Positions 45,076-53,346 of a DNA stretch of 64,000 nucleotides are shown here, one piece after another. This DNA is from an uncultured Ruminococcus sp. Its GTDB lineage: Bacteria; Bacillota; Clostridia; Oscillospirales; CAG-272. The translations under genes were made by a program, and so were the position numbers. The notes below the pieces were generated by a model, which did not search any database, was not told where the DNA came from, and saw only the letters and a program-made list of their open reading frames with translations. The DNA lies in contig CADBKZ010000007.1 of assembly GCA_902795355.1 (NCBI GenBank), positions 1-64,000 of the forward strand, given 5' to 3'. How positions within the stretch are numbered: position 1 is the first letter of the stretch; every line of letters begins with the position of its first letter.

Positions 45076-46104
45076 TCAAAGCGTTTCGGCAAGGTCGAGC
45101 AACAGCCGCTCGGTGGTAGCCCAACCAATGCAGGGGTCGGTAATGGATTTTCCGTAGATCCCCTCTCCGATCTTCTGCGCGCCGTCCTCAAGATAGCTTT
45201 CGATCATCAGCCCCTTGACGAGCTTGCGGATCTCGTCGCTATGGCGGCGGGAATGGAGCACCTCTTTGGCAATGCGCACCTGCTCGGCATACCGCTTGCC
45301 CGAATTGGCATGGTTGGTATCCACGATAACGGAAGGGTTTGCGAGCTTCTTTTCGGCATAGAATTTCGCCGTTAACGCAAGATCCTCGTAATGGTAGTTG
45401 GGGTGCGATTCGCCATGCTTGTTGACATAACCGCGCAGAATGGCGTGGGCATACGGGTTGCCCATGCTTTCCACTTCCCAACCGCGGTAGATGAACGCAT
45501 GGGGATGCTGCGCGGCGGTGATGGAGTTCATCATAATGGAAAGGTCGCCGCTCGTCGGGTTCTTCATGCCGCAGGGAATGTTGAGTCCGCTCGCGGTCAG
45601 GCGGTGTTGCTGGTCTTCCACGCTCCGCGCGCCGACCGCCACATAGGAAAGCAGGTCGGAAAGATACCTGTGGTTCTCGGGATAGAGCATTTCATCCGCG
45701 GTGGAAAGCCCCGTTTCGGCAAGCACGCGCGTGTGCATCCGGCGGATGGCGACGATCCCCGCGAGCAGGTCGGAGTCCTTTTCGGGGTCGGGTTGGTGGA
45801 GCATGCCCTTGTATCCGTCGCCGATCGTGCGGGGTTTGTTGGTGTACACCCGCGGGATCAGCAACAGCTTTTCCTTGGTTTTCTCCTGCACTTCTGCCAA
45901 ACGGTTGGCATAATCGAGCATGGCCTCTTCGTTATCCGCCGAGCAGGGGCCGATCACCAAAAGAAAACGGTCGCTCTTCCCCTCGAAAACGGCTTTGATC
46001 TCCTCGTCGCGCGCCACTTTGGCGGCCTCGAGCGCGGGCGTGAGCGGGTACATCTCCTTAATTTCCTTCGGAATGGGGAGCTTGCGTTTGAAATTCATAT
46101 TCAT
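45076..46104 (-). CDS. aroF: 3-deoxy-7-phosphoheptulonate (DAHP) synthase
   Basis: A 342-residue type I DAHP synthase: LLVIGPCSADNEEAM, PRTIGDGYKG, GMKNPTSGD, VIVDTNHANSGKRY and GIYGKSITDPCIGW. It joins phosphoenolpyruvate and erythrose 4-phosphate, the first step of the shikimate pathway. It is the last gene of the operon, 24 bases after tyrA. The N-terminal extension of about 40 residues resembles that of the feedback-inhibited E. coli isoenzymes; which amino acid inhibits it cannot be told. Confidence 0.93.
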   Translation of the reverse strand: MNMNFKRKLPIPKEIKEMYPLTPALEAAKVARDEEIKAVFEGKSDRFLLVIGPCSADNEEAMLDYANRLAEVQEKTKEKLLLIPRVYTNKPRTIGDGYKGMLHQPDPEKDSDLLAGIVAIRRMHTRVLAETGLSTADEMLYPENHRYLSDLLSYVAVGARSVEDQQHRLTASGLNIPCGMKNPTSGDLSIMMNSITAAQHPHAFIYRGWEVESMGNPYAHAILRGYVNKHGESHPNYHYEDLALTAKFYAEKKLANPSVIVDTNHANSGKRYAEQVRIAKEVLHSRRHSDEIRKLVKGLMIESYLEDGAQKIGEGIYGKSITDPCIGWATTERLLLDLAETL

Positions 46105-46128: not shown

Positions 46129-46992
46129 TTAGTCGGGTTTTTTATCGAACAGCGCGCGGCGCGCCGTGGAAATGCGCATCATTTCTTTGAGCTTTTCGTC
46201 GTTCCCATCCGAAAGGTAGGTGCGGATGCGGTGCAATTCCCCCGCGAACGCGTCGATCTGCGAAACCAACGCTTCCCGATTCAGGCGGAACAGCTCGGTC
46301 CACATCTCCTCGTTGATCCGCGCGATGCGCGTCAGGTCGCGGAACGAATCGCCTGTGTAATCCTGCAAATGCGGGTCCATGTTGCAGGTCATCAGCGAAA
46401 CGGCGATGCAGTGGGTCAGCTGCGAGACATAGGCGATCATGCGGTCGTGCTTCTCGGGGGTCAGCTCGCTGACGTGCGCAAACCCGAGCCGAACGCCGAG
46501 GTCGCGGCAAAGTTCAATCGCCTCGGGCGTGTTGCGGTCGGTGGGGGTAACAATGTAGTTCGCGTTGCGGAAAATGCCCGCGTCCGCGTTCTCAACGCCG
46601 TACACCTCTTTGCCCGCCATGGGGTGCGCCCCGATGAACTCCACGCCGCTCGGCAGCAGCTCCTGAACGCGATAGACCACGCTTGATTTCACACCCGTTA
46701 CGTCGGTCAGCACCGCGCCTTGCCGGAAATAATTTCCGTATCGCGCCACCCACTCCAAAAACACATGGGGATAGAGCGCAAACACGGCGACGTCCGCCCA
46801 CGCGATCAGGTCGGCGGTCGGTTCCGTGGAGCCGCTTTCGATCCACCCTTTCCGCACCGCGTAGTCAACGGAAGATTGCCGCCGCGTGATACAGCGAACG
46901 GAAAAACCCTGCGCCGAAAGCGACTGCGCGTAGCTCCCGCCGAGCAGGCCGAGGCCGACGATGAGAATATGTTGATCGGTTGTCAGTTTCAT
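46129..46992 (-). CDS. tyrA: prephenate dehydrogenase
   Basis: A 287-residue NAD-type dehydrogenase: ILIVGLGLLGGSYAQSL (Rossmann), VTGVKSSV, FIGAHPMAGKE and EKHDRMIAYVSQLTHCIA. It converts prephenate to 4-hydroxyphenylpyruvate on the tyrosine branch. The start overlaps the aroA stop by four bases. It lacks a C-terminal ACT domain. Confidence 0.93.
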   Translation of the reverse strand: MKLTTDQHILIVGLGLLGGSYAQSLSAQGFSVRCITRRQSSVDYAVRKGWIESGSTEPTADLIAWADVAVFALYPHVFLEWVARYGNYFRQGAVLTDVTGVKSSVVYRVQELLPSGVEFIGAHPMAGKEVYGVENADAGIFRNANYIVTPTDRNTPEAIELCRDLGVRLGFAHVSELTPEKHDRMIAYVSQLTHCIAVSLMTCNMDPHLQDYTGDSFRDLTRIARINEEMWTELFRLNREALVSQIDAFAGELHRIRTYLSDGNDEKLKEMMRISTARRALFDKKPD

Positions 46993-48188
46993 GTGGTTTC
47001 CACCTCGATTCCGAGTTTTCGGAGCGTTTCAAAATAGTCCGGATAGCTTTTGCGCACCGCCTCGGCCCCCGCGAGTTCCCCGCCCGTCAGCGTCAACAAC
47101 GTCGCGCACGCCATCACCACGCGGTGGTCGTTATGCCCGCAAATCGGTTCGGCAGGCGTTTTGAGCGTTCCCGCGCGAACGGTCAGCGCGTCGGCGGCGA
47201 GGTCGGTCGCAATTCCGAACTTGGCGAGTTCCGCGGCCATTGCCGCGCCGCGGTCGCTCTCCTTGATGCGCAGGCGGGCCGTGCCTTTTAGCGTTACGCC
47301 GTGCAGCGCCGCGCCAAGCGACATCAGCACAGGGGCAAGGTCGGGGCAATCGGAAACATCCAACGTGGGATGCCCCGCGGCTAATTGCCGGTAAAAATCG
47401 CGGTACACGCGGTCGCCCTGTCCCGTTTCGGGGTTCAGACCCGTTACGGTCACGTTCCCGCCGAGAAGGCCCAGCGCGTCGAGGAACGCGGCGTTCGACC
47501 AATCCCCTTCCACGGGGAGATCGGCGGGCCGATAGGTTTGCCCGCCCGAAACGGTGAGCGTCAGCGGGTCGGGCATTCCGACCGAAACGCCGAACCGCCC
47601 GAGCACATCCACCGTCAGATCCAGATACGGGCGGCTGACGAACGGCGGCAGAATTTCCACGCGGCTCTCGCCCGAAAGAAGCGGGAGCGCGAACAAAAGT
47701 CCCGTAAAAAATTGGCTGGAAAGGTCGCCGCGCAGGCGGAAAACGCCCGAGGAAAGCGGTCCGCAAACCTCAATTTCGCATACACGGTGCGCAAATTTCA
47801 GCTTTTGCTCCCGACAAACCGTTTCAAAAACGTCCTGCGGGCGTTCCAGAAGCCGCGGACTGCCCGAAAGCGTGCAGGGCGTATTGCGGAGCAGGCAGAG
47901 CGGCAGGAAAAACCGCAGGGTGCTTCCGCTCTCGCGGCAGGGAAAGCGGTTGCTCGGGGTCCCCGCGCCGCCCTCAACAACGGCAACGCCGTTTTTCAGC
48001 GCGACCTTTGCGCCGAGCGCGCGGGCGCAATCGACCGTTGCTAGAATATCCTCGCTTTCGGACAGCCCGCGAATCGTGCTTTTCCCCTTTGCAAGGGCGG
48101 CGCAGATCAGCGCGCGATGCGCAAAGCTTTTGGATGGGGGCGCCGCCGCGGTTCCCCGCGCGCGGCTCGGTTGGATGCGGGCGATCAT
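46989..48188 (-). CDS. aroA: 3-phosphoshikimate 1-carboxyvinyltransferase (EPSP synthase)
   Basis: A 399-residue protein with APPSKSFAHRALICAALAKG, ESGSTLRFFLPL, GDLSSQFFTGLLFALPLL, RLRIKESDRGAAMAAELAKFG and GHNDHRVVMAC. It adds the enolpyruvyl group to shikimate 3-phosphate. Both neighbours overlap it by four bases. Confidence 0.95.
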   Translation of the reverse strand: MIARIQPSRARGTAAAPPSKSFAHRALICAALAKGKSTIRGLSESEDILATVDCARALGAKVALKNGVAVVEGGAGTPSNRFPCRESGSTLRFFLPLCLLRNTPCTLSGSPRLLERPQDVFETVCREQKLKFAHRVCEIEVCGPLSSGVFRLRGDLSSQFFTGLLFALPLLSGESRVEILPPFVSRPYLDLTVDVLGRFGVSVGMPDPLTLTVSGGQTYRPADLPVEGDWSNAAFLDALGLLGGNVTVTGLNPETGQGDRVYRDFYRQLAAGHPTLDVSDCPDLAPVLMSLGAALHGVTLKGTARLRIKESDRGAAMAAELAKFGIATDLAADALTVRAGTLKTPAEPICGHNDHRVVMACATLLTLTGGELAGAEAVRKSYPDYFETLRKLGIEVETT

Positions 48189-48673
48189 TTTTCCGCACCC
48201 CCGCCGCAGGTTTCGGCAAGGAACGCAACCGCTTCCAGATACCCGTTGACGCCCTTGCCCATAATGGTTTTTACCGCCGCCGACCGGATGTAGCTGACCT
48301 GCCGGAACTCCTCGCGGGTTGTTACGTCGGAAAGGTGCACCTCGACGGTGGGAACGCCGACGGCCTTGACCGCGTCGAGCAAGGCGACGCTGGTATGCGT
48401 ATACGCGGCGGGATTGATGATGATCCCGTCAAATTTCCGGTAGGCGTTCTGAATTGCCGTTACCAGAACCCCTTCCGAATTGGTTTGCAGGAACCGCGCG
48501 CGGATCCCGCGTTTTTTACATTCCGCCCTGACCGCCGAAACCAGATCGGCATAGGTCTGCTTCCCGTAAATTTCGGGTTCGCGCAGGCCGAGCAGATTCA
48601 GGTTGGGGCCGTTCAGAACCAACAGTTTGAGCGGTTTTTTCGGGTGGTTTTTGCCGACGACAACGGGTTTCAT
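48185..48673 (-). CDS. aroQ: type II 3-dehydroquinate dehydratase
   Basis: A 162-residue protein: LLVLNGPNLNLLGLREPEIYG, QTNSEGVLV, IIINPAAYTHTSVAL and VEVHLSDVTTREEFR. The catalytic Tyr (in YGKQTY), Asn (NPAAYTH) and His are present. It dehydrates 3-dehydroquinate. An AAGGAG precedes ATG at 48673, which overlaps the previous stop. Confidence 0.95.
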   Translation of the reverse strand: MKPVVVGKNHPKKPLKLLVLNGPNLNLLGLREPEIYGKQTYADLVSAVRAECKKRGIRARFLQTNSEGVLVTAIQNAYRKFDGIIINPAAYTHTSVALLDAVKAVGVPTVEVHLSDVTTREEFRQVSYIRSAAVKTIMGKGVNGYLEAVAFLAETCGGGAEK

Positions 48674-49938
48674 AAGCAATTCTCCTTCCAAATACGGTTG
48701 CAGGCTTCCTCGGGCGTTGCGAAATTCTGAACGGTCAGGTCGGCCGCCGCGCGGTAAATCGGCTCGCGCACGCGCCGCAGGGCTTCCCGTTTCTCCCGCG
48801 TATCCGAAAGCGGGCGGGTGGGGTCGAACGCCGTTTCTTCCGGCTCGCGATCCAGCCAGATCAAAAAGCCGTTTTCGGCAAGCATGCGTCGGTTTTCCGC
48901 GCGCAGAACGGCTCCGCCGCCCGTGGCGACGACCGCGCCGCGAACGCGGGACGTCAATGCACGGATCGTTTCGGTTTCCGCGTTGCGAAACGCTTCCTCG
49001 CCGTTCTCGCGGATAAACGCGGCAATCGGGCCGATTTGTTTTGTCAGTTCTTCGTCGGTATCAAAAAACGGTCTGCCCGTCCGCTCGGCAAGCGCGGCTC
49101 CGACGGTCGATTTTCCCGAGGCGGGCATTCCGATGAGCACAAGATTGCTTTTCTTTCCCCGCAACGCCCGATAAACGCGCTCGGCGCACGCCGCCGTTTC
49201 GGCTTCGTCGGCGGTCCGTCCCGTAAAATACCGCTCGGCGGCAACCGCTTGCGCCGCGAGCATATACAGCCCCGAAACAGCGGGGATTCCAAGCTCTTTG
49301 GCCTGCCGGATCAACGCCGTGTGAATGGGGTGATAGACGACATCCGCCACCCCGAGGAGCGTTTCGCTCGGCGTTTCGGGGTGCAGAAACGGTTGCAGAT
49401 CGATGGGGGACACCTCGGTTTTGGGGAACATGCCGCAGGGCGTGGTGTTAATGATGTAGTGCGCGCGGACGCGCGCCGCCGCCCCATAGGAGATGGCCCC
49501 TTCCCGCTCGGTTCGGCTGACCTTGACGATCCGCGCCGCGCCGAGATCCGCGCAAACGGCCGCGGCGGTTTTGCTTGTCCCGCCCGTACCGAGGATCAGA
49601 ACGGTTTTCCCCGCGAGGTCGAAGCCCGCGCGGCGGAGCAACGCCGAAAGGCCGTAATAATCGGTGTTGGTCCCGTGCAGCTTCCCATCCGCGCGCCAGA
49701 TCGTGTTCACCGCGCCGATGCGGCGGGCAAGGTCGGTCACGTCGTCCAGATACGGAAGCACGGCGGTTTTGTACGGCACCGTGACGTTGACCCCGTTGCG
49801 ATCGAGATGTGCGACGAAATCGCCCACTTCCTCGGGTTTCAACTCGATCAGATCATAGGCGGGGTAGCCCAGAATGTTCTCAAAAATCTCCTTGGAATAG
49901 CTGTGCGGCAGCTTTTCGCCGATCAGACCGAGTTTCAC
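48670..49938 (-). CDS. aroE/aroK: shikimate dehydrogenase-shikimate kinase fusion
   Basis: A 422-residue bifunctional protein. Residues of about 1-260 are AroE: GEKLPHSYSKEIFENI, GVNVTVPYK, GAVNTIW, GTNTDYYGL and LILGTGGTSKTAA. Residues of about 268-422 are AroK: LVLIGMPASGKSTVG (Walker A), FFDTDEELTKQIG, IAAFIRENGEEAFR and VVATGGGAVLR. The two act on consecutive steps (3-dehydroshikimate to shikimate to its 3-phosphate). A GTG start at 49938 overlaps the aroB stop and gives a clean AroE N-terminus. Confidence 0.93.
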   Translation of the reverse strand: MKLGLIGEKLPHSYSKEIFENILGYPAYDLIELKPEEVGDFVAHLDRNGVNVTVPYKTAVLPYLDDVTDLARRIGAVNTIWRADGKLHGTNTDYYGLSALLRRAGFDLAGKTVLILGTGGTSKTAAAVCADLGAARIVKVSRTEREGAISYGAAARVRAHYIINTTPCGMFPKTEVSPIDLQPFLHPETPSETLLGVADVVYHPIHTALIRQAKELGIPAVSGLYMLAAQAVAAERYFTGRTADEAETAACAERVYRALRGKKSNLVLIGMPASGKSTVGAALAERTGRPFFDTDEELTKQIGPIAAFIRENGEEAFRNAETETIRALTSRVRGAVVATGGGAVLRAENRRMLAENGFLIWLDREPEETAFDPTRPLSDTREKREALRRVREPIYRAAADLTVQNFATPEEACNRIWKENCL

Positions 49939-50969
49939 GGGGACACCTCTTCTTTTTTCCGGTTTCCGAAATACGCTTCGGCGCGCGCGCGCAGATCCGG
50001 AACGGCGAGCGAAACGATTTCGGCTTTTCCGATTTCCCGCAGGAGAACGCAATCCACGCCGCCGGCGTTTTTCTTCTTATCGTGTTCCACCGCGCGCATC
50101 ACGTCGTCCAAGTGGATGGGATACGAGGTCGGAAGCCCGACTTTTTGCAGGACGTGTATCAGTTTTTCGCGCGTTTTCCCCTCGCACATGGGGAGCATTC
50201 CGAGCGCGACGCACTCGCCGTGGAAAAGCGCGGGTTCGGCCGTTACCTCGATTCCGTGGCCGACGGTATGGCCGAAATTGAGGATTTTGCGCAGGCCCGA
50301 TTCCTTTTCGTCCCGTTCCACCACGTCGCGTTTGACGCGGAGCGCGCCGACGATGATTTCTTCCAGATGTTCCTCAAACGGTTCGGTCTCCAACAGGCGG
50401 AACAGGTCGGCGTCCGACGTCGCCGCCATTTTGATCGCCTCGCAAAGCCCCGACACCAGCTGTCGGCGGTCGAGCGTTCCGAGCGTTTCGGGATCGATCA
50501 GCACCTTTTTGGGCTGCCAGAACGCGCCGACAATGTTTTTGACCCCGCCGAAATTGATTGCGGTTTTCCCGCCGACCGAGGAATCCACCTGCGAGAGAAG
50601 CGTTGTGGGAATATTATAGAAATCCACGCCGCGCATATAGGCCGACGCAACAAAGCCCGCAAGGTCGCCGCAAACGCCGCCGCCGACGGCCACCACGCAA
50701 TCCTTTCTGGAAAAGCCGCGGTTCAGCATGGCCGAAAGCGCGTCCGAAAACGCCCGCATGCTTTTGCTTTCCTCGCCCGCCGGAACCGCGAAAATCGTCG
50801 GTTCCTTGGCCGCGGCCGCCACCGCCTCGGCATACTGCCGAGGCACGCCGCCGTCGGTCAGGATCAACACCCGCCGGTCAAGATTCAACAGCTCGCCGGC
50901 GCGGGAAAGCGCGCCGCGCTCCACAACAACATCATAACTCCGCTCCCCCAACCGAACCGGAAGAATCAT
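49935..50969 (-). CDS. aroB: 3-dehydroquinate synthase
   Basis: A 344-residue protein with VLILTDGGVPRQYAE, GEESKSM, VAVGGGVCGDLAGFVASAYMRGVDF, PTTLLSQVDSSVGGKTAINFGGVKN and LNFGHTVGHGIE. It converts DAHP to 3-dehydroquinate with NAD and a divalent metal. The ATG overlaps the pheA stop (ATGA). Confidence 0.95.
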   Translation of the reverse strand: MILPVRLGERSYDVVVERGALSRAGELLNLDRRVLILTDGGVPRQYAEAVAAAAKEPTIFAVPAGEESKSMRAFSDALSAMLNRGFSRKDCVVAVGGGVCGDLAGFVASAYMRGVDFYNIPTTLLSQVDSSVGGKTAINFGGVKNIVGAFWQPKKVLIDPETLGTLDRRQLVSGLCEAIKMAATSDADLFRLLETEPFEEHLEEIIVGALRVKRDVVERDEKESGLRKILNFGHTVGHGIEVTAEPALFHGECVALGMLPMCEGKTREKLIHVLQKVGLPTSYPIHLDDVMRAVEHDKKKNAGGVDCVLLREIGKAEIVSLAVPDLRARAEAYFGNRKKEEVSP

Positions 50970-52072
50970 ATATTTTCTCCTTTCCCCGTTTCGCGCGACG
51001 AATAGGAACCGACCACTTTGAGCTTATCGCAGATGCCCGAAAGATCCTCGAGCATGCGCCGCCCTGTTTCCCCGCGGACGTTCCCTTCGCATTCCAAATA
51101 GAAATAATACTGCCACACCAGCGTTTTCATGGGGCGGCTGTGAAGCCCGCGCATGTTGAAACCGTGGCGGCCGATGATGTTGATCGCTTTTGCCAGCGCG
51201 CCGGCTTGGTTTTTGACCGTGAACACAAGGAAGAAGCAATCGTCCTCTCTCCGAGGATCGCGATTTTCGGTGCGGGAAAGCGCGGCGAAACGCGTGGAAT
51301 TTCCGTCGCTGTCGTTGATCCCCGCGGCAAGAACGTTCAGGCCGAACAGGCGGGCGGCCTCTTCGGTGCCAATGGCGGCCAGATGCGGGTCGTTCCGCTC
51401 CGCGACGTACTTTGCGGCAAGCGCGGTGTTGGAATACTCCCGCTCGGCGAAGCCGTGCTTGCGGAGAAAGGTTGCGCATTGCGACAACGCCTGCGGATGG
51501 CTGACCACTTCCCGCACGTCGGCAATCGACGCCCCCTTGGGCGCCAACAGGTTCTGCGTAACGTTCAGGTTCAGAACGCGGTTGATGTAGAGCGGGCCGG
51601 AAAAGAGCAGGTCGCAAACCACGCCGACCTCGCCCGCAAAGCTGTTCTCCACCGGCAGGACCACGCTGTCGCATTCGCCGTCCGCAACCGCCTGATACGC
51701 CGCGGCAAAATCGCCGTAGGAGACGTATTCGGCCTCGGGAAAGAGTTTCTGCGCGGCAATGGAAGCAAACGCGCCCGCCGTTCCGCTGTACGCCACGCGC
51801 ATGCCGGAAATCAGCTTTTGCTGGTAGGAGCGGGAAATGCGCATCATGTAGCGCTGGAAGGTAAAATAATAGCCGCGCAGTTCTTCGTCCTCTACGCGCT
51901 CGCAATTGCGGCGCAGGACCTCTTCTTCGCGTTGCTCGTCGAGGACGGGAAGCCCCCGTTCCCGCTTATAGGCCGCCACCTTGCGCACCGCGCGCATTCT
52001 GCGGCAAAACAGCTTCGCAATCTCGCCGTCCACTTCGTCGATCTCCCGCCGGACCTCGTCCAAACGCTCCAT
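50966..52072 (-). CDS. pheA: chorismate mutase-prephenate dehydratase (P-protein)
   Basis: A 368-residue bifunctional protein. Residues 1 to about 90 are an AroQ-class chorismate mutase (IDEVDGEIAKLFCRRM ... VAAYKRERGLPV). Residues of about 92-270 are prephenate dehydratase (VAYSGTAGAFASIAA, VLPVENSFAGEV, GNSTRFAAL), and a C-terminal ACT domain follows (ALAKAINIIGRHGFNMRGLHSRP) that usually binds Phe for feedback inhibition. The ATG at 52072 follows CGAGGAACGG, right after the leader terminator. It is the first structural gene of the operon. Confidence 0.94.
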   Translation of the reverse strand: MERLDEVRREIDEVDGEIAKLFCRRMRAVRKVAAYKRERGLPVLDEQREEEVLRRNCERVEDEELRGYYFTFQRYMMRISRSYQQKLISGMRVAYSGTAGAFASIAAQKLFPEAEYVSYGDFAAAYQAVADGECDSVVLPVENSFAGEVGVVCDLLFSGPLYINRVLNLNVTQNLLAPKGASIADVREVVSHPQALSQCATFLRKHGFAEREYSNTALAAKYVAERNDPHLAAIGTEEAARLFGLNVLAAGINDSDGNSTRFAALSRTENRDPRREDDCFFLVFTVKNQAGALAKAINIIGRHGFNMRGLHSRPMKTLVWQYYFYLECEGNVRGETGRRMLEDLSGICDKLKVVGSYSSRETGKGENI

Positions 52073-52091
52073 GTTCCGTTCCTCGTTTCAT

Positions 52092-52134
52092 AAAAAAATA
52101 CGCGCAGACCCTTTTTTGCGGGTCCCGCGCGTAT
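52092..52134 (-). terminator. attenuator terminator of the aromatic operon
   Basis: On the minus strand ATACGCGC-GG-GACCC pairs with GGGTC-T-GCGCGTAT, followed by seven T. It lies between the leader peptide and pheA, only 20 bases before the pheA start, where a terminator makes sense only as a conditional one. Confidence 0.88.
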
Positions 52135-52179
52135 CTGCTTCTGCCGCGGAAACCCGTTTCTTCTTTGGGGATCCCGCAA
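52116..52179 (-). promoter_or_regulatory. candidate antiterminator pairing
   Basis: In the leader RNA TTGCGGG (52179-52173) can pair with CCCGCAA (52122-52116), which overlaps the 5' arm and loop of the terminator. The two structures are therefore mutually exclusive. A separate hairpin TCGTTG..CAACGA (52206-52191) follows the leader stop codon. Confidence 0.6.
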
Positions 52180-52208
52180 CACAAATTGACTCGTTGAATG
52201 CAACGATT

Positions 52209-52283
52209 TTATGCGAAAACAGAAAGCCCCTCTTCGGTATAGGCGCCATAAAATCGAATGCTATAATAATAGTACTTTTTCAT
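52209..52283 (-). CDS. aromatic-amino-acid-rich leader peptide
   Basis: A 24-residue ORF with AAGGAG seven bases before its ATG. It begins MKKYYYYSIRFYGAYTEE and ends SVFA: six Tyr, four of them consecutive, and two Phe, so a third of the residues are aromatic. It sits between the operon promoter and the attenuator, just as in trp/phe attenuation leaders. Slow reading of the Tyr/Phe codons would stall the ribosome and allow antitermination. Tyr is probably the main signal, judging by its codon count. Confidence 0.88.
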   Translation of the reverse strand: MKKYYYYSIRFYGAYTEEGLSVFA

Positions 52284-52328
52284 AGCCCTATCTCCTTTCG
52301 CATAAAACAATTGAACTCGATGGAATTG

Positions 52329-52357
52329 ATTATAGCATATTTTTCGCGGTTTGTCAA
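52329..52357 (-). promoter_or_regulatory. sigma-A promoter of the aromatic operon
   Basis: On the minus strand TTGACA (52357-52352), 17 bases, TATAAT (52334-52329) preceded by TG-C: a near-consensus promoter, fitting an operon controlled after initiation. Confidence 0.9.
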
Positions 52358-52395
52358 CAGGAAAATGAAATTTTGCGGTTTTTTTCTTGCAAAAA

Positions 52396-53346
52396 TCACA
52401 TCCATTGCGTAAAAAGCAGGAACATGAGCGGAATGGTGGCGCAAGAGAGGACATGCGAGATCAGCGCCATGCCCGCCGCCGCGGTGGGGTCCCTCCCGTA
52501 GGCGCTCGGAACCACCACCGCGTTCAACCCGAGCGGCATGGCAAGCACGCAAACCGCGCATTGCTCAAACACCTCGGGAAGCGGCAGGAAATGAAACGCG
52601 ACGATGCCGAGAAGCGGATAGACGACCAATTTCAGGAATGAGATGATGTAAATGCTCCCCGTCCGGAACACGCGGCCAAGGTCAACGGTTGCAACCGTCA
52701 TGCCCGTGAGCAGCATGGCAATAGGAGACATGCAGGCTCCCACTGCGTCAATCGCCCCCAGCAGAAACGCGGGAACGGGAACTTCCGCAACGCCGAGAAC
52801 CATTCCGAGAAGCAGCGAAATTACCAACGGATTGATCATTTTTTTGAGCCGTTGCGGAATCGTCGGTTTCTCCTCGGCGTCCTCGCCCATCAGCAGAACG
52901 GGCGCGCCCCAAAGATAAATCAAGATCCAAAGGGCCATCACGAAAACGAGGTATTGCGGCAGAATGTCGGGAAAAACCGCCGCAACCACGGCGTTCCCCA
53001 TAAACCCAAAGTTGGAAAAACTCAACCCGTAAAGGTAAATGCGCCGCAAAAAGGAATCCTTCGTGCAAACCCGCGAAAACAGAAACGAAACGGCAATCAC
53101 CACCGCCGCCATTGCAAAACTGCCCAACAACAGTTTCCACGCGGAAGAAAGCAACTCTCTTGTAAACTTTCGGATAAAGGTTCCCAGAATGAACGCGGGA
53201 ATCAACAGCAGGTTTTCCAACTTGGAGAGCATACCGGCCGCCGTTGGGGAAATCAGTTTGCCGCGCACCAACAAAAAGCCCGCGGCAATCAAAAGGATCA
53301 GATATGCCATTTGCCCGAGCGTTGCCGAAAAAATTGCCGTGTTCAT
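52396..53346 (-). CDS. AEC (auxin efflux carrier) family transporter
   Basis: A 316-residue membrane protein with about ten hydrophobic helices, N-terminal LGQMAYLILLIAAGFLLVRGKLIS, PLVISLLLGMVLG and C-terminal MPLGLNAVVVPSAYGRDPTAAAGMALISHVLS, as in AEC/malate permease-type carriers. The substrate is unknown. No terminator is seen between its stop and the aromatic operon promoter, 39 bases away, so read-through into the aromatic leader is possible. A candidate exporter of aromatic metabolites, by position only. The ribosome site is weak. Confidence 0.87.
   Translation of the reverse strand: MNTAIFSATLGQMAYLILLIAAGFLLVRGKLISPTAAGMLSKLENLLLIPAFILGTFIRKFTRELLSSAWKLLLGSFAMAAVVIAVSFLFSRVCTKDSFLRRIYLYGLSFSNFGFMGNAVVAAVFPDILPQYLVFVMALWILIYLWGAPVLLMGEDAEEKPTIPQRLKKMINPLVISLLLGMVLGVAEVPVPAFLLGAIDAVGACMSPIAMLLTGMTVATVDLGRVFRTGSIYIISFLKLVVYPLLGIVAFHFLPLPEVFEQCAVCVLAMPLGLNAVVVPSAYGRDPTAAAGMALISHVLSCATIPLMFLLFTQWM

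Follow-up and report, generated by a model that had tools for sequence, protein, structure and literature searches.

In the naming of the arms of the his attenuator, the pairings A:B, C:D and E:F terminate transcription, and B:C and D:E antiterminate. In E. coli, pheA is the only gene under the control of pheL, a Phe-rich leader peptide. The his attenuator of Salmonella and E. coli (hisL) combines a run of control codons with a six-arm chain, and its RNA terminates by default when untranslated (PMC4046918; PMC1183508). Assays with the Salmonella his leader demonstrated that CGA stalls ribosomes and de-attenuates, and that, among the Phe and Tyr codons, decoding of NNU is slower than that of NNC (PMC4046918). 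In Bacillota, leader-peptide attenuation is known mainly for his, for S. aureus leu and for antibiotic resistance: his leader attenuators have been described in the Bacillus cereus group, Eubacteriales and Erysipelotrichales (PMC9413887) and for hisS (PMC2965389), and the accessible part of a further report assigns a leader-peptide attenuator to the branched-chain genes of S. aureus (PMC5794164). For aromatic genes, the uORFC-13-1 motif consists of a putative Phe leader peptide and a terminator before aroF in Acholeplasma (PMC8632094). Fig. 6b of Stav et al. 2019 presents two uORF motifs with Phe and Tyr that belong to shikimate genes, and the accessible portion of that survey names an alphaproteobacterium, C. 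novyi, Thermovirga, Arcobacter and Baumannia (PMC6429828).

The window analysed here is a stretch of 64,000 nucleotides from a 2.16 Mb draft assembly of an uncultured Ruminococcus sp. Its minus strand carries an aromatic operon of seven contiguous genes, pheA-aroB-aroEK-aroQ-aroA-tyrA-aroF, most of which overlap by a few bases (Table 1). An earlier note, made from the letters of the window, had described such a seven-gene operon downstream of a Tyr/Phe leader peptide, and the seven genes are indeed found there. On the same strand, a gene for a membrane transporter of the Mem_trans family (52396-53343) adjoins the attenuator upstream.

Table 1. Elements of the leader and genes of the aromatic operon, with positions in the window.
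Feature	Position	Strand	Basis
Promoter, TTGACA / 17-nt spacer / TATAAT, TG-extended -10	52329..52357	-	consensus match 12/12
Arm A, GTTTTATGCGAAAG, holding the 5' part of the leader's own ribosome site	52295..52308	-	minimum-energy fold
Shine-Dalgarno AAAGGAG of the leader ORF	52292..52298	-	sequence; 8 nt 5' of ATG
Leader ORF, MKKYYYYSIRFYGAYTEEGLSVFA, 24 codons + TAA	52209..52283	-	frame kept in L033-L036; RFY-type kin elsewhere
Codon block CGA-TTT-TAT, Arg10-Phe11-Tyr12	52248..52256	-	conserved in RFY leaders
Arm A', GGGGCTTTCTGTTTTCGCATAAAATC, across the leader stop codon; partner A or B	52205..52230	-	folds, duplex-versus-shuffle
Arm B, TTGTGTTGCGGGATCCCC region; partner A' or C, in the window also D	52167..52184	-	folds; same register in L033
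Arm C, CGGGTTTCCGCGGC; partner B (termination) or D (antitermination)	52143..52156	-	folds
Arm D, GATACGCGCGGGACCC, terminator 5' arm	52120..52135	-	hairpin -24.7 kcal/mol
Arm E, terminator 3' arm, with T7 tract	52092..52111	-	hairpin fold; terminator here in 28/28 leaders
pheA, chorismate mutase-prephenate dehydratase	50966..52072	-	Pfam CM_2, PDT, ACT
aroB, 3-dehydroquinate synthase	49935..50969	-	Pfam
aroE-aroK fusion, shikimate dehydrogenase + shikimate kinase	48670..49938	-	Pfam Shikimate_dh_N, SDH_C, SKI
aroQ, type II 3-dehydroquinase	48185..48691	-	Pfam
aroA, EPSP synthase	46989..48188	-	Pfam
tyrA, putative prephenate dehydrogenase	46129..46992	-	ORF, named from its sequence
aroF-type putative DAHP synthase, last gene of the operon	45076..46104	-	ORF; N-terminus as in genes behind other leaders

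On the minus strand the elements follow one another as promoter, ribosome site, ORF, U-tailed terminator and pheA. The promoter, with TTGACA at 52357-52352 and TATAAT at 52334-52329, is the sole 12/12 match within 51600-53000, and L033-L036 have comparable promoters in the same position. The leader peptide, MKKYYYYSIRFYGAYTEEGLSVFA, has 24 residues, six of them Tyr (four consecutive) and two Phe. Of the 14 window ORFs of 12-45 codons that have a ribosome site, it ranks first with 8 Tyr plus Phe, the runner-up having 4, and at the local Tyr frequency the binomial probability of at least six Tyr among 23 residues is 2e-4. The terminator hairpin (52135-52097, with T7 at 52098-52092) lies 19 bases 5' of the pheA ATG (52072). 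The leader RNA as a whole folds at -89.4 kcal/mol, compared with -61.3 +/- 4.7 kcal/mol in dinucleotide shuffles (z = -6.0; 0/200). The near-consensus promoter, the Tyr-rich ORF with its ribosome site (52283-52209) and the stable terminator with a 7-T tail ahead of pheA (52135-52092) were all elements that the earlier note had listed, and each is present.

Relatives of the locus were gathered with pheA as bait, and short ORFs were picked from their upstream DNA solely on amino-acid content; an exact nucleotide pattern, CGATTTTATTATTAYTAYGC, proved too strict as a finder, with only two found over 395 genomes. Tyr/Phe-rich leader ORFs precede aromatic operons across the window's family and in other families of Clostridia. 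Leaders of the type found in the window, with the tripeptide Arg-Phe-Tyr (RFY), occur in at least eight genera, and 25 distinct RFY leaders span eight genera and two families. The leader peptides of close relatives are MKKYAYYNSGRFYGTYTKQGLSVVA, MKSYFYYAVNGRFYGSYSQKGCSVFA and MKLYYCYAENDRFYGSYSQKGCSVFA, and those in more distant genera include MKNRLYYTVRFYYYGLSTDRQSRIAL, MQKTRFYCGYFLGFRVFLTA and MKMMYYYSMRFYYTASL. Two further leader types, AMD (MFKLYAYFYYFMTAMDRCIVPGLAD) and GCPS (MFASKFYYFYFFNMGCPSFVKTEK), are without RFY and keep the Tyr/Phe runs. Structural analysis of 28 leaders placed an intrinsic terminator between the ORF and the gene in every one, although the other residues, the arms and even the first gene vary; this gene may be pheA, an aminotransferase gene (L006, L169, L170) or a DAHP synthase gene (L046, L071, L073, L171). 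In alignment A1, the gaps within the ORF measure 3 and 6 nt, and those outside it are mostly not multiples of three. A leader directly before pheA was missing in many relatives; pheA is internal in some of these, and in others the compared DNA stopped short of the operon head. The earlier note had held that close relatives with no leader ORF or terminator at this place would speak against attenuation, and both are present in relatives.

Since the arms are invariant within groups and unalignable between groups, pairing was assessed by duplex-versus-shuffle tests. The window leader can form a chain of pairings, A:A', A':B, B:C, C:D and D:E. Arm A pairs with the stop-codon region of the leader in the minimum-energy fold, the A:A' duplex is better than 500/500 shuffles, and TTTTATGCGAAAGGAGA in arm A is invariant across 5 sequences. 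In 12/12 leaders, the duplex that joins the arm at the end of the ORF to an upstream partner is better than almost every shuffle, with differing sequences, and C:D complementarity is retained in L034-L036 with a different sequence. Of the conserved Tyr codons and covarying stems sought in related leaders, Tyr/Phe content is retained, but arms A and A' are invariant in the closest group, and the evidence for covariation comes solely from comparison between groups. The competing TTGCGGG/CCCGCAA pairing of the earlier note (B:D, 52179-52173 with 52122-52116) exists in the window, but it was demoted as a conserved antiterminator, as it amounts to 6 bp in L035 and L036, only 4 bp in L034 and a poor match in L033; the conserved antiterminator is C:D, which would be freed when A' captures B.

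The other leader types are built differently. In AMD leaders, direct pairing joins the A-M-D-coding RNA GCGAUGGA to the terminator arm UCCACCGC, and in GCPS leaders GGGCUGCCCGU can, as read from the sequence, pair with ACGGACAGUCC, a simpler and direct design. The family thus holds at least three RNA architectures, the chain, AMD and GCPS, and in the latter two it is the RNA coding for the peptide that pairs with the region of the terminator. On the reverse strand of L071, from 62 to about 340, two GCPS-type ORFs stand in tandem before the DAHP synthase gene, each with a terminator-like hairpin. In L005, L008 and L077-L080, a T run follows hairpin B:C between the leader ORF and pheA, which may indicate two serial terminators.

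The effect of ribosome position was modelled by folding transcripts that end at the terminator loop, with the ribosome footprint and all RNA 5' of it removed and the ribosome stepped codon by codon. In the window, D was paired upstream in 60% with the ribosome on RFY versus 29% with it on the last three codons; with the A site at codons 10-14 (R F Y G A) the value was 59-67%, and elsewhere 15-39%. The fold with the ribosome at codons 10-14 contains A':B and C:D, and that with the ribosome at the stop codon contains B:C. The corresponding values for RFY and the last three codons were 81/35 in L034, 85/19 in L077 and 97/29 in L012. Folding the leader with and without its ribosome-covered part, as the earlier note had suggested, favoured the antiterminator at Arg-Phe-Tyr over the last three codons in 21/24 RFY leaders (means 0.75 vs 0.52; Wilcoxon p = 1.4e-4, an optimistic value because kinship is ignored). 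Shuffles of the spacer from ORF to terminator were as good in 0/40 in L034, L035, L077, L078 and L012, and in 2/40 in the window. The favourable stretch likewise starts at the R codon of RFY in L009 and L012, and it ends just past the Tyr/Phe codons in L034, L036 and L077-L080 and a few codons later in L035. In these crude equilibrium folds, a clear switch was absent in L033, L037, L008, L081, L018 and L137, with an effect in the wrong direction in L137, L033 and L018, and D-pairing in the window was flat (26-35%) when the 5' RNA was included. With no ribosome, the minimum-energy fold of the window contains A:A' and D is free in 72%, and in several relatives the antiterminator is the default state when no ribosome is present. 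For a stall at Tyr4-7, the folds predict no antitermination, by an energy gap of about 1.4 kcal/mol that is within error. The Tyr/Phe-rich ORF put forward as the sensor is conserved, but the predicted competent ribosome position runs from Arg10-Phe11-Tyr12 to Ala14 and is not at the run of four Tyr; the control codons are probably the Arg-Phe-Tyr block rather than Tyr4-7.

The comparison of leaders, terminators and pairings supports the ribosome-mediated attenuation first proposed from the window, and it is very probable that an attenuator of this kind controls the seven-gene aromatic operon. From these parts we infer how translation, stalling and read-through would proceed and which amino acid would be sensed. 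RNA polymerase would start at the promoter at 52357, and a ribosome would translate the leader peptide. With Tyr- and Phe-tRNA charged, the ribosome would reach the stop codon and cover A', so that B:C would form, D would be free for E, and transcription would terminate ahead of pheA. When Tyr (or Phe) is scarce, the ribosome would linger on the slow block CGA-UUU-UAU; A' would then capture B and C would capture D, leaving E single and permitting read-through. If the leader were untranslated, A:A' would hide the ribosome site and the chain A:A', B:C, D:E would yield the terminator; the Salmonella his leader behaves in this way.

In the block, selection of codons is seen as well as conservation of residues. 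In the 25 distinct RFY leaders, Arg is encoded by CGA in 25/25 and Phe by UUU in 25/25, and Tyr by UAU in 23/25 and UAC in 2/25. CGA accounts for 4.6% of Arg codons in the window genes and for 4.6% in 115 pheA genes, and for 10/166 of the Arg codons preceding Phe; among the other Arg codons of the 28 leaders in the codon count it occurs in 1/38. In the same 28 leaders, UAU:UAC is 92:21 and UUU:UUC is 58:20, and in the window genes UAU makes up about 50% and UUU about 44%. The 34 tRNA matches in the draft genome include the Arg anticodons ACG, CCG and TCT, and anticodon TCG was not found among them; decoding of CGA therefore presumably falls to the ACG (inosine) tRNA, unless the draft misses a TCG gene. 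Since Arg is not a regulated product, CGA would act, on a slow-codon reading, as a built-in brake. We are evenly divided on whether CGA-UUU-UAU is a selected slow-codon cassette, placed where ribosome position decides the switch and sensing small drops in Tyr/Phe charging. RNA pairing as the cause of CGA accounts for the CG in the groups with UGCG:CGCA at the stop codon and fails for the window, L033-L036, L009, L018 and L081; a reason at the level of the RNA or the peptide may yet account for the block.

One such peptide-level mechanism is nascent-peptide arrest, in which R-F-Y would respond not to tRNA charging but to a small molecule such as free Tyr/Phe, in the way that TnaC senses Trp. 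The RFY tripeptide comprises the best-conserved residues across groups, as this would predict, but conservation extends to the codons themselves (CGA-UUU-UAY), more than a peptide motif would require, the residues upstream of RFY, which would lie in the exit tunnel, are unconserved, and the AMD and GCPS leaders keep Tyr/Phe runs without RFY. We consider arrest of this kind improbable. Slightly less probable still is a riboswitch or protein-bound attenuator with an incidental ORF. The leader RNA is conserved and very stable, as such an element might be; however, the ORF frame and Tyr/Phe content persist though the RNA sequence changes wholly between groups, alignments A1 and A2 contain no shared aptamer-like core, and no Rfam match was obtained at the leaders of the window or relatives, the His, Phe, Trp, Leu and Thr leader families having been scanned at gathering score. 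The least probable reading takes the leader as the gene of a small functional protein, which its ORF, promoter, ribosome site and terminator do resemble, with the operon expressed by ordinary read-through, but the peptides have little in common except Tyr/Phe runs, a partner that competes for the terminator 5' arm is conserved, and the element, where found, heads an aromatic operon.

A T-box or other known RNA as the leader was ruled out by covariance-model scans, which gave no match. The contrast that the earlier note drew with the T-box control of aromatic genes in Clostridia is borne out here: a covariance-model search detected no T-box (RF00230) upstream of the operon in the window or at some 60 related loci. 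Elsewhere, however, this genome contains seven T-box matches (contigs C14, C6, C9, C2 (two), C4 and C5), one of them before valS. T-box and leader-peptide control therefore coexist in this genome. A Gut-1 RNA (RF01706) lies at L112:882-962, near the pheA gene of a relative.

The mechanism is of a known kind. No description of this leader family was found in the literature consulted, and both the family and the CGA-UUU-UAY cassette are apparently new, a provisional judgement given that subscription literature lay outside the search. The Stav et al. motifs are candidate Phe/Tyr leader peptides with shikimate genes and, on the description in the accessible part of that survey, by which they were compared, may be identical to the leader family of the window. 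The uORFC-13-1 motif likewise places a putative leader peptide and a terminator before a shikimate-pathway gene, but it is reported solely from Acholeplasma and unknown organisms, uses Phe rather than Tyr, and precedes a single gene. The E. coli pheL-pheA system shares its first gene and its leader-peptide logic with the window; in contrast, the window leader encodes a Tyr-rich peptide and heads the whole shikimate-to-Phe/Tyr route, and the comparison with pheL, made by Rfam scan only, gave no match. The his leaders of Bacillota are similar as leader-peptide attenuators that replace T-boxes, and differ in serving histidine genes. The his attenuator of Salmonella and E. coli has control codons and chained arms, as does the window leader, but differs in amino acid, operon, phylum and sequence; in the window, moreover, arm A holds the ribosome site and the control block mixes slow codons for Arg, Phe and Tyr in one triplet. 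The leaders described here extend leader-peptide attenuation to the complete Phe/Tyr pathway of gut Clostridia that also use T-boxes, with one regulatory idea rebuilt in at least three RNA architectures. What laboratory assays showed for CGA, UUU and UAU, namely slow reading within a leader peptide (PMC4046918), has a natural counterpart in their invariant CGA-UUU-UAY block, through which the contribution of slow synonymous codons to the sensitivity of an attenuator can be tested directly.
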